DNA of 64,000 nt. Source: Halorubrum sp. SD626R (lineage in GTDB: Archaea; Halobacteriota; Halobacteria; Halobacteriales; Haloferacaceae). How positions within the stretch are numbered: position 1 is the first letter of the stretch; each line of letters starts with the position of its first letter. The stretch is from positions 1 through 64,000 of the forward strand of contig NZ_CVRT01000157.1 of the NCBI RefSeq assembly GCF_001261915.1, in the 5' to 3' direction. Shown piece after piece: positions 48,687-51,353 of the stretch. The translations under genes and the position numbers were made by a program. The notes beneath the pieces were generated by a model, which searched no databases, had not been told where the DNA came from, and saw only the letters and a program-made list of their open reading frames with translations.

Positions 48687-48814
48687 GGGATCGTGCCTAC
48701 GCGCTCCCGATTCAAAAGCCTCGCGTCCGATTTCGGCCGGCTCGGAGGCGATCGCTCCGGATCGCCGGCAAGAAGCGCGGCGGCCGAGCGACGCCGTCGG
48801 ACCGTGGCATCGTC

Positions 48815-48842
48815 GTCAACCAGTATCTTCAAGTTGGTTTAC
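48815..48842 (+). promoter_or_regulatory. BirA-type biotin operator upstream of bioY
   Basis: GTCAACC-N14-GGTTTAC at 48815-48842. The known BirA consensus is GTAAACC-N14/15-GGTTTAC; the right half is perfect, the left has one mismatch, and the spacing is exactly 14. The bioY ATG is 15 bp downstream, so BirA-biotinyl-AMP would block the promoter or transcript start when biotin is plentiful. Confidence 0.7.
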
Positions 48843-48857
48843 GAGCCTGTCGTGGAC

Positions 48858-49439
48858 ATGGCAACCAACACGGAGTCGGTGGATCTCGTCGGCGACGAGG
48901 CCGCGACGAACCTCGCCCGCGCGGCGCTGTTCGCCGCGCTCGTCGGCGCGTTCGCGTACGTTTCCTTCCCGTTCCCGGTGTCGCCCGCGCCGGTCACGCT
49001 ACAGGTCCTCGGCGTCTTCCTCGCCGGGATCTTCCTCGGTCCCGTCTGGGGCGGCGCGGCGCTCGTCCTGTACCTGACGGCCGGCGCGCTCGGCGCGCCG
49101 GTGTTCGCGGGCGGCACCGCGGGCTTCGGAGAGCTCGTGGGCGGGACCGCCGGCTACCTCTGGTCGTACCCGATCGCGGCCGCGCTCGTCGGTGCGATCG
49201 TTCACCGCGGCGGCGACCTCCGCGGCCTCGACGCCGTCTCCGTCCCGGTCCTCGTGGGCGCGATGGCCGTCGGTACGGTCGTCGTCTACGCGATGGGCGT
49301 CGCCGGCCTCTACCTGGTGTTGGAGCTCACTCCCGCCGAGGCGTTCGTCCAAGGCGCGGCCGTGTTCCTCCCCGCGGAGGCCGCGAAGATCGCCGCCGCG
49401 GTCGGGATCGTGCGCTCGGATGCGATCGCGGCCGCGTGA
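48858..49439 (+). CDS. bioY: Biotin ECF transporter S component BioY
   Basis: 193 residues, six membrane helices. VSFPFPVSPAPVTLQVLGVFLAGIFLGPVWG and LYLTAGALGAPVFAGGTAGFGELVGGTAGYLWSYPIAA carry the BioY biotin-binding motifs. It captures biotin and works with the ATPase and transmembrane T component encoded downstream. Preceded by a BirA-type operator, followed by a repetitive spacer that may couple translation to bioM. Confidence 0.95.
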   Translation: MATNTESVDLVGDEAATNLARAALFAALVGAFAYVSFPFPVSPAPVTLQVLGVFLAGIFLGPVWGGAALVLYLTAGALGAPVFAGGTAGFGELVGGTAGYLWSYPIAAALVGAIVHRGGDLRGLDAVSVPVLVGAMAVGTVVVYAMGVAGLYLVLELTPAEAFVQGAAVFLPAEAAKIAAAVGIVRSDAIAAA

Positions 49440-49448
49440 GGTGACCGC

Positions 49449-49747
49449 GTGAGCCTTCCCGAGGTGACAGCGTGAGCCTTCCCGAGGTGACAGCGTGAGC
49501 CTTCCCGAGGTGACAGCGTGAGCCTTCCCGAGGTGACGCCGTGACCGACCCGGAGGCGACGCCGTGAGCCTTCCCGAGGTGACAGCGTGAGCCTTCCCGA
49601 GGTGACAGCGTGAGCCTGCGTGAGGTGACCGCGTGAGCCTTCCCGAGGTGACAGCGTGAGCCTTCCCGAGGTGACAGCGTGAGCCTTCCCGAGGTGACAG
49701 CGTGAGCCTTCCCGAGGTGACGCCGTGACCGACCCGGAGGCGACGCC
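49449..49747 (+). repeat. Thirteen 23-bp units: overlapping mini-ORF ladder
   Basis: Exactly 13 x 23 bp = 299 bp between bioY and bioM, ending one base before the bioM GTG. Each unit begins with GTG and, read in frame, encodes eight codons and a TGA that overlaps the next unit's GTG (GTGA). Type A (units 1-3, 6, 7, 9-11) encodes MSLPEVTA; B (4, 12) MSLPEVTP; C (5, 13) MTDPEATP; D (8) MSLREVTA. Each of types A, B and D contains GAGGTGA, a strong Shine-Dalgarno core, ahead of the next GTG. Order is AAABC AAD AAABC, and the 15 bp before unit 1 recur before unit 9, giving a 184-bp higher-order repeat. Confidence 0.95.
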
Positions 49748-50527
49748 GTGATCGACGTCGACGGCGTCACCTGTCGGTACGGCGGGACGCGAGCCGGCGA
49801 ACGCGACGGCGACGGGGTGGTCGCCGTCGACGACGTCTCCCTCTCGATCCCCGACGGCGAGTCCCTGGTCGTCGCGGGTGCGAACGGCTCCGGGAAGACG
49901 ACGCTGGTCCGGACGTTCAACGGGCTCGTGACGCCGGACTCGGGAACCGTCGCGGTCAACGGGACGCCCGTCGAGGACGACCTCGTCGCCGCCCGGACCG
50001 CCGTCGGCATGGTGTTCCAGGACCCCCGCGACCAGATCGTCGCGGCAACCGTCGGCGCCGACGTCGCGTTCGGCCCGGAGAACCTCGGGCTCTCGCACGC
50101 CGAGATCGACCGTCGGGTCGCGGCCGCGCTCGACGCCGTGAACATGACCGGGCGCGAGGAGGAGCGGATCGCGTCGCTGTCGGGCGGCGAGCGCGAGCGC
50201 GTCGCGATCGCCGGCGCGCTGGCGATGGAGCCGGACCACCTCGTCCTCGACGAGCCGTTCACCGGGCTCGACGAGCCCGCCCGCCGCTCGGTCGTGGACA
50301 GCCTGCGAGAGCGCCACCGCGCGGGGACGAGCGTCGTCGTCGTCACCCACGACCTCCGCGACGTGCTCGGGCTCGCCGACCGGGTCCTGGGGCTGTCCGA
50401 CGGTCGAATCGCGGTCGACGCCGCTCCGGAGGCGGCGGTCGCCGACCTCCCGGGACTCGACGTGCGGGTCCCCGAGGGCGCGCTCGTCGACCGCCGCGGC
50501 GACCGCGCCTCGTCCTCCGACCCGTGA
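49748..50527 (+). CDS. bioM: Biotin ECF transporter ATPase BioM
   Basis: 259 residues, GTG start that overlaps the last mini-ORF stop. Walker A VVAGANGSGKTTLVRTF (about 42), Q-loop MVFQDPRDQIVAATVGADVAFGPENLG (the ECF-specific Q-helix region), signature LSGGERERVAIAGAL, Walker B HLVLDEPFTGLD and H-loop VVVVTHDL. Energises BioY-BioN. An acidic insert near residue 14-24 (GTRAGERDGDG) is haloarchaeal. Its last bases overlap bioN by 4 bp (GTGA). Confidence 0.94.
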   Translation: MIDVDGVTCRYGGTRAGERDGDGVVAVDDVSLSIPDGESLVVAGANGSGKTTLVRTFNGLVTPDSGTVAVNGTPVEDDLVAARTAVGMVFQDPRDQIVAATVGADVAFGPENLGLSHAEIDRRVAAALDAVNMTGREEERIASLSGGERERVAIAGALAMEPDHLVLDEPFTGLDEPARRSVVDSLRERHRAGTSVVVVTHDLRDVLGLADRVLGLSDGRIAVDAAPEAAVADLPGLDVRVPEGALVDRRGDRASSSDP

Positions 50528-51237
50528 CGCTCTCGTACGCCCCCGGCGACTCGCTCGCCCACCGCCTCGACCCGCGGTCGAAGCTCCTCGTGCAGGTGGG
50601 GTTCGCGGCCGCGGCCTTCGCGCACACGACGCCCCGCGGGCTCGCGGCGCTGACGGTCCTCGCCGCGGGCTGCCTGCGGCTGTCGGGCGGCGGCCCCCGC
50701 GACCTGTGGGCGTACCGGGTCGCGCTCCCGTTCCTCCTCGTCGCCCCGGTCGTGGCGGGCGCGACGCTCGGCGACCCCTGGTTCCGCGTCGACCGCGCGG
50801 CCGACACGGCGCTGGCGAGCTACCGGGTCCTCCTGGTGCTCGTCGTCGCCGCCGCCTACGTGCGGTCGACGCCGGTCCGCGATTCCCGGGCGGCGATCCA
50901 GCACGCGGTGCCCGGCAGGCCCGGGCAGCTGCTCGCGGCCGGCGTCGCGCTCGTGTTCCGCTTCCTCCCGCTGCTGAAGCGCGACCTGCTGACCGCGCGC
51001 GACGCCATGCGGGCGCGCCTGGGCGACGAGCTACCGGTGCGGGACCGGATGCGGATCGTCGCCGTCGCGGGGATCGACCGCGCGTTCGGCCGCGCCGACC
51101 GGCTCGGGACCGCCCTCTCGGCCCGGTGTTTCGCGTGGAACCCGACGCTCCCGCGGCTGGCGTTCGGCCGGGCGGACGCCGTCGCGCTGGCGGTCGGGGT
51201 CGGCCTGCTCGCGGCCGCGGTCGCCGGCGCGCTCTGA
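50524..51237 (+). CDS. bioN: Biotin ECF transporter T component BioN
   Basis: 237 residues, GTG start. HRLDPRSKLLVQVGFAAAAFAHT is the N-terminal EcfT motif; cytoplasmic coupling helices end in AARG-like motifs, here LTARDAMRARLGDEL and RADRLGTALSARCFAW, which contact the ATPase. Four or five membrane segments. Last gene of the bioYMN set. Confidence 0.9.
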   Translation: MTLSYAPGDSLAHRLDPRSKLLVQVGFAAAAFAHTTPRGLAALTVLAAGCLRLSGGGPRDLWAYRVALPFLLVAPVVAGATLGDPWFRVDRAADTALASYRVLLVLVVAAAYVRSTPVRDSRAAIQHAVPGRPGQLLAAGVALVFRFLPLLKRDLLTARDAMRARLGDELPVRDRMRIVAVAGIDRAFGRADRLGTALSARCFAWNPTLPRLAFGRADAVALAVGVGLLAAAVAGAL

Positions 51238-51242
51238 GGGCG

Positions 51243-51294
51243 GACCGGCCCGAGAGACCGGACCCCGAGACCGGCCCGAGAGACCGGACCCCGA
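51243..51294 (+). repeat. 26-bp tandem duplication
   Basis: Two perfect 26-bp copies (51243-51268, 51269-51294) and a partial third, built from GACCGG and CGAGAGACCGGACC elements, between bioN and the next gene. Possibly a replication-slippage product. It lies just before the TATA box AGTTTTAACC (51321-51330). Confidence 0.75.
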
Positions 51295-51353
51295 GACCGG
51301 ACCGGCCCCGCGTCGTGGCAAGTTTTAACCGGACCGTATCCGGCGGATCTACC

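Follow-up and report, generated by a model that had tools for sequence, protein, structure and literature searches.

Background

Mycobacterial interspersed repeats (MIRUs) occur at gene starts, where a small ORF is coupled to the downstream gene, and they have been proposed to allow insertion of DNA with little effect on gene expression (reviewed in PMC12548453). Coupling has also been described for overlapping gene pairs, and in Haloferax volcanii the help that a Shine-Dalgarno (SD) sequence gives to reinitiation is variable and non-essential (PMC6728339). Reinitiation in that organism is steeply distance-dependent: it decreases by 40-60% when the untranslated spacer measures 13-14 nt and is near zero at 22-23 nt (PMC10666635). 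For E. coli, 15 nt of upstream ORF are enough for reinitiation. Here we describe a junction in a haloarchaeal transporter operon at which the spacer is far longer than these limits and consists of minute overlapping reading frames.

Organization of the biotin transporter operon

The window, by which we mean the whole 64,000-nt stretch of Halorubrum sp. SD626R DNA that was analysed, encodes a haloarchaeal biotin ECF transporter as a bioY-bioM-bioN operon, with the S, A and T components adjacent to one another (Pfam BioY, ABC_tran and CbiQ, respectively):

48813-48844, strand not given: inverted repeat TCGTCAACC-N14-GGTTTACGA directly upstream of bioY (sequence reading)
48858-49439, + strand: bioY, substrate-binding (S) component of the ECF biotin transporter, 193 aa (Pfam BioY, E=1e-33)
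49748-50527, + strand: bioM, ECF ATPase (A) component, 259 aa, with a GTG start at 49748 (Pfam ABC_tran)
50524-51237, + strand: bioN, transmembrane (T) component, 237 aa (Pfam CbiQ, E=1.6e-13)

ECF ATPase models rank best among the NCBIfam matches of bioM yet score under the curated cut-off; the gene adjoins bioY in 180+ haloarchaea. The start of bioN and the stop of bioM share the sequence GTGA, and a start/stop overlap at this junction is likewise found in most relatives. The inverted repeat occurs in the form TCGTAAACC-N14-GGTTTACGA upstream of bioY in most of the 15 haloarchaeal loci inspected. We take it to resemble the operator of BirA, the bacterial biotin repressor, and it is likely to be a biotin repressor site. 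Just past bioN lies a separate tandem array (51243-51304) with a 13-nt unit, GACCGGACCGAGA, in 4.8 copies.

Structure and origin of the 23-nt array

The bioY stop codon (TGA, 49437-49439) is followed by 9 nt, by thirteen units of 23 nt (299 nt) and then by the GTG of bioM at 49748, so that the spacer totals 308 nt. It contains the following features:

49436-49452, + strand: first links of the chain, GTG AGG TGA (49436-49444) and GTG ACC GCG TGA (49441-49452) (sequence, chain path)
49449-49747, + strand: thirteen tandem 23-nt units, each an 8-codon GTG...TGA minicistron (sequence, Tandem Repeats Finder, unit listing)
49725-49751, + strand: last minicistron, unit 13, type C, MTDPEATP (unit listing, comparison with relatives)
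49434-49567, + strand: segment with an exact copy 184 bp (8 units) downstream, at 49618-49751 (134 of 134 bases identical)

Every unit consists of GTG, seven further codons and TGA (27 nt), with GTGA common to neighbouring units, and the TGA of unit 13 overlaps the bioM GTG in the same manner, at a spacing of -4. The ladder of thirteen such frames leading to the bioM start, as given in a preliminary description of this DNA, matched base for base: the sequence itself, a unit-by-unit listing and the output of Tandem Repeats Finder (49438-49728, period 23, 12.7 copies, score 468) all agree with it, and that program scored no other array in the window nearly as high. Because the genome is a draft of 159 contigs, the exact count of 13 units could be an assembly estimate. 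The units are of four types, A (GTGAGCCTTCCCGAGGTGACAGC), B (identical to A but ending in GACGCC), C (GTGACCGACCCGGAGGCGACGCC) and D (GTGAGCCTGCGTGAGGTGACCGC), arranged in the order AAABC AAD AAABC; their peptide, MSLPEVTA, is present thirteen times if variants are included. Types A, B and D carry GAGGTGA ahead of the next start, as previously noted, and type C carries GGAGGCGA in that position. Judged by the haloarchaeal anti-SD, both motifs are Shine-Dalgarno-like, and one or the other lies ahead of every start. The exit from bioY by way of two very short frames (MR and MTA) was likewise borne out: GTG AGG TGA overlaps the bioY stop by GTGA, GTG ACC GCG TGA ends on the GTGA of unit 1, and the start of unit 1 is itself preceded by GAGGTGA. 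All links of the chain from bioY to bioM have a gap of 0. Given the distance limit reported for H. volcanii (PMC10666635), a spacer of 308 nt could be coupled in this way only if it were itself translated.

The segment that is repeated 184 bp downstream begins within the last codons of bioY and takes in the bioY stop region. Its identity over 134 of 134 bases indicates that the array grew via in-register duplication; unit D is the scar of this 8-unit duplication, with its second half corresponding to the end of bioY (GCGTGAGGTGACCGC). No copy of the A unit with up to 3 mismatches was found elsewhere in the same genome or in 51 congeners, which restricts the unit to the bioY-bioM locus and led us to reject a mobile repeat. 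The array thus arose locally, through duplications that kept the register. The closest relative, L002, has one unit (GTGAGTAACCCGGAGGCGGCGCC), to which unit 13, the C unit beside bioM, is the nearest match and of which it looks like the counterpart.

A promoter inside the spacer was also considered and rejected, as the array has a GC content of 69% and its longest A/T run is 2 nt, which leaves no room for a TATA promoter. Similarly, a structured RNA was rejected, since folding of the spacer gave a z-score of -2.3 with an empty centroid. An Rfam search returned no match in the spacer, its sole hit being a sub-threshold Guanidine-II match inside bioM.

Unit number and phase among Halorubrum species

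We compared the junction in 51 Halorubrum genomes, one per species. The spacers begin with a 6-10 nt leader, whose phase is free, and continue with n x 23 nt. Three genomes have no unit (L014, L016 and L041, with TGA, 9 nt and GTG), about 15 have a single unit, two have two (L003 and L004, H. yunnanense) and one has three (L007, Halorubrum sp. Hd13), so that unit numbers of 0, 1, 2, 3 and 13 are seen across species, each species being represented by one genome. The short arrays of one, two or three units in these relatives are free of the draft-assembly doubt that attaches to the unit count. In two species (L015 and L023) bioY overlaps bioM directly.

Comparison of the spacer across the genus for unit number and phase had been proposed in the preliminary description, with units that are not a multiple of 23 bp as evidence against the idea. 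A few relatives do have other lengths, the distance from the mini-start to bioM being 32 nt in L022, 35 nt in L010, 56 nt in L044 and 62 nt in L047 (H. vacuolatum). All four lengths are 2 mod 3 and therefore close on the GTGA of bioM; that lengths other than 23 are always in phase favours the hand-over mechanism. The leader is free in phase and the ORF is fixed, a combination that serves as an internal control.

An RTG is found at position -23 in 18 of the 24 long Halorubrum spacers and at none of the other offsets from -14 to -29 in the same set. For the units that start there (18), the information content is 1.7-2.0 bits in the GTGA columns, about the level of most SD columns, as against 0.05-1.24 bits in codons 2-4. 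The unit peptide is conserved only in the residues imposed by the SD and GTGA.

bioY-bioM junctions across the haloarchaea

Order-wide searches, with start sites called by homology, yielded 183 distinct junctions, of which 180 were scored; L135, L157 and L184 were dropped because their bioM starts are uncertain. The genes overlap at 50 junctions and are separated by 0-12 nt at 69 (119 in total at 12 nt or less) and by at least 18 nt at 61, and spacers of 13-17 nt are entirely absent from the 180. Defining a bridge as a chain of ATG or GTG ORFs that connects bioY with bioM and in which no start lies more than 10 nt from the preceding stop, we found that 49 of the 61 long spacers are bridged, most of them with a gap of 0. 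Excluding the window, 48 of 60 spacers are bridged, as against 24.9+-2.4 after shuffling and 28.7+-2.2 when the last 12 nt were held fixed. When each sequence cluster is represented by a single spacer, a step that lowers the non-independence of related species without removing it, bridges are present in 33 of 42, versus 18.1+-2.0 in shuffles (reached by 0 of 1000) and 19.7+-1.7 in shuffles that keep the SD stretch. Outside Halorubrum the corresponding figures are 22 of 31 and 12.2+-1.5, again reached by 0 of 1000 shuffles. In silico deletion of a single base leaves 31% of bridges intact and deletion of three bases 90%. Seventeen long spacers outside Halorubrum follow a bioY that terminates in RTGA, and 14 of them have a length of 1 mod 3, as bridging requires (p=5e-5).

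Bridges are also formed by unrelated spacers without repeats (e.g., L044, L047, L117, L120, L124, L160, L161 and L169). A Halobellus junction (L125, the same as that of H. inordinatus, L241) has its own short ladder with a period of 17, and a member of another genus (L106) has a 29-nt duplication, both 2 mod 3. The comparison shows the thirteen-unit array to be the extreme of this wider bridging pattern. The proposal that ribosomes are handed from bioY to bioM by termination and reinitiation is supported by these comparisons, with phase kept in the relatives and bridging far above chance, although twelve long spacers remain unbridged at the 10-nt limit (e.g., L121, L152, L179, L181, L183 and L187), so that coupling appears to be dispensable.

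In one clade (L179, L181, L183, L186 and L187; f17, g37) bioY ends in TAG and is followed by spacers of 18-28 nt without a bridging ORF, an apparent loss of coupling.

Ladders at other gene junctions

Other junctions were searched for four RTGA at a fixed spacing, with period 23 in the genus and other periods in the family. Ladders of period 23 lead from an aminotransferase gene to that of a 110-aa protein (L061) and from a DUF3311 gene to a sodium:solute symporter gene (L073, which lies outside the catch of the filter described below). Ladders of period 20 connect the genes for a MobA-like protein and a solute-binding protein (L296), an M20 peptidase and a class V aminotransferase (L297), and an SDR protein and ETF (L303), and further gene-to-gene RTGA ladders were found at L306, L356 and L364. 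The gene pairs at these eight loci, which belong to Halorubrum and to other genera of its family, are unrelated and co-directional, and the periods are 20, 23 or 26. Under a uniform filter, gene-to-gene ladders account for 9 of 89 arrays at period 20, 23 or 26 versus 0 of 54 at period 22 or 25; the contrast rests on a small comparison and a modest test (one-sided Fisher 0.012; 0.03 once the bioY arrays are left out).

Four candidates of period 22 (L335, L336, L342 and L343) were dismissed after the likely gene starts had been read. ATGA arrays of period 20 in many Halorubrum and Halobellus genomes (L304, L305, L308-L312, L315 and L320) were also rejected as ladders, as they consist instead of TCGAAATGAA boxes with CCCCT. 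Boxes of the forms TCGAAATGAA and CCCCTCCGTCGAAATGA are conserved at 20-nt spacing in several genomes at these loci; our guess is that they are replication-origin boxes, unrelated to the ladder.

A probable minicistron relay and its alternatives

From the sequence comparisons, we consider it probable (about 0.7) that the minicistrons couple bioM to bioY via termination-reinitiation and that the array is such a relay multiplied by slippage. On reaching the bioY stop, a TGA overlapping or directly next to a GTG that has an SD just upstream, a ribosome would terminate, restart at that GTG, translate eight codons, stop at the next GTGA and repeat these steps until it reaches bioM. The selected trait would be unbroken translation, which ties bioM to bioY, the two encoding subunits of one transporter, and the minicistron peptides would be by-products. 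The ancestral junction may have been a direct overlap or a short gap, in which lengthening insertions or tandem duplications were retained if the start-to-start phase stayed at 2 mod 3. Slippage and unequal exchange could then have raised the unit number to about thirteen in this genome, an expansion that would do no harm, since the addition of whole units preserves the phase.

The units are, after all, close copies produced by duplication, and any period of 2 mod 3 closes automatically. They might therefore represent a neutral minisatellite in a slippage-prone bioM start region (SD plus GTGA), in which the last SD and GTG start bioM afresh and the intermediate ORFs are idle. Retention of a strong SD in the last unit is in line with this, as are the dozen relatives with long unbridged spacers. 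We nevertheless regard it as unlikely, because the mini-start is conserved while the adjoining codons diverge, unrelated spacers without repeats are bridged far above shuffles, periods of 1 mod 3 are absent from gene junctions and spacers of 13-17 nt are missing. Another possibility is that the array offers thirteen SD-GTG sites at which 30S subunits load irrespective of bioY, raising the local supply of ribosomes for bioM. Each unit does have GAGGTGA or GGAGGCGA at start-site spacing; such landing sites would, however, require neither the in-phase closure of the units nor the open bridges seen in relatives that lack repeated SDs (e.g., L120, L160 and L161), and the SD is variable and non-essential for reinitiation in H. 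volcanii (PMC6728339), which makes independent landing improbable.

Minicistron translation might also serve another end than coupling as such. The difference in copy number among species (0, 1, 2, 3 and 13) and the expectation that each hand-over is less than 100% efficient would suit a BioY:BioM ratio that is set by copy number, as the preliminary description suggested, with slippage as the tuning device and some ribosomes shed at each step, but with one or zero units in most relatives this too seems unlikely. Continuous open frames would be needed as well if ribosomes were simply kept on the mRNA and so prevented termination of transcription between bioY and bioM, archaeal polarity being ascribed to FttA (PMC12548453). 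Spacers of 25-40 nt are, however, often bridged already, although polarity should matter little over so short a distance, and the starts are placed precisely on start/stop overlaps, so that protection of this kind is distinctly improbable. Finally, the thirteenfold presence of MSLPEVTA and its variants could be taken for a regulatory leader peptide that senses a signal such as biotin, through the peptide or its codons, and gates bioM. We find this scarcely credible, because conservation of the peptide stops at the residues that SD and GTGA dictate, Rfam matches nothing in the spacer and folding is just mildly stronger than in shuffles.

The relay reading carries a cost of its own. By arithmetic rather than data, fifteen hand-overs at 80-90% each would bring about 3-20% of bioY ribosomes to bioM; if reinitiation is lossy, the ladder could weaken bioM expression rather than preserve it, unless fresh SD-driven initiation tops it up. 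Tentatively, and at less than even odds, we extend the relay to a general statement: that slippage ladders of minicistrons are a recurrent, evolvable device for setting coupling strength, that haloarchaea generally repair or tolerate longer junctions by phase-selected bridges, and that at least ten serial reinitiations are possible.

How often and how efficiently prokaryotic ribosomes can terminate and restart in series becomes directly testable on a natural ruler whose step length is known. The 180 junctions provide comparative evidence that suggests selected coupling at a transporter operon, and the absence of 13-17 nt spacers, with longer ones mostly bridged, suggests that genome evolution is shaped by the distance limit on reinitiation found in H. 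volcanii. Since gene finders ordinarily skip ORFs of eight codons, they would overlook bridges of this kind.

Comparison with known systems

Beyond MIRUs, we found no report of serial minicistron ladders, of tandem repeats with coupling or of haloarchaeal bridging in the literature searched, most of it outside subscription journals. The preliminary statement that no haloarchaeal example has been described thus holds within that literature, whereas the principle does have a mycobacterial precedent (PMC12548453).

Throughout the chain, the gap between each stop and the next start is 0, inside the limit of about 10 nt that applies to a termination-reinitiation pair. The -4 overlaps of H. volcanii and E. 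coli are similar in their RTGA, in an SD inside the upstream frame, in joining subunits of one complex and in a steep distance limit. They link ordinary gene pairs, however, and the available portions of the two reports (PMC6728339, PMC10666635) describe no long spacer bridged by a minicistron, whether single or serial. Bicistronic design (BCD) cassettes also deliver ribosomes through a short leader cistron ahead of the target, but are synthetic and have one leader cistron with no serial ladder (PMC5995908). In Salmonella, mgtQ, a natural small ORF in the mgtC-mgtB intergenic region, favours translation of the transporter gene that follows; it does so through ribosome-destabilising acidic codons and alternative stem-loops rather than an overlap relay (PMC8092293).

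In MIRUs, the small ORF is joined to the next gene by a -4 nt start/stop overlap, just as unit 13 is joined to bioM (PMC12548453). MIRUs are apparently mobile and are present in many mycobacteria, in contrast to the bioY-bioM unit, which occurs at a single locus, arose by local duplication of the junction, is 23 nt long, forms thirteen serial links and is archaeal. Because it is neither interspersed, with no copy elsewhere in its genome or the 51 congeners, nor apparently mobile, we do not class it as a MIRU, although it is MIRU-like in principle. BCD cassettes and mgtQ are looser analogies, and the MIRU is the nearest precedent.
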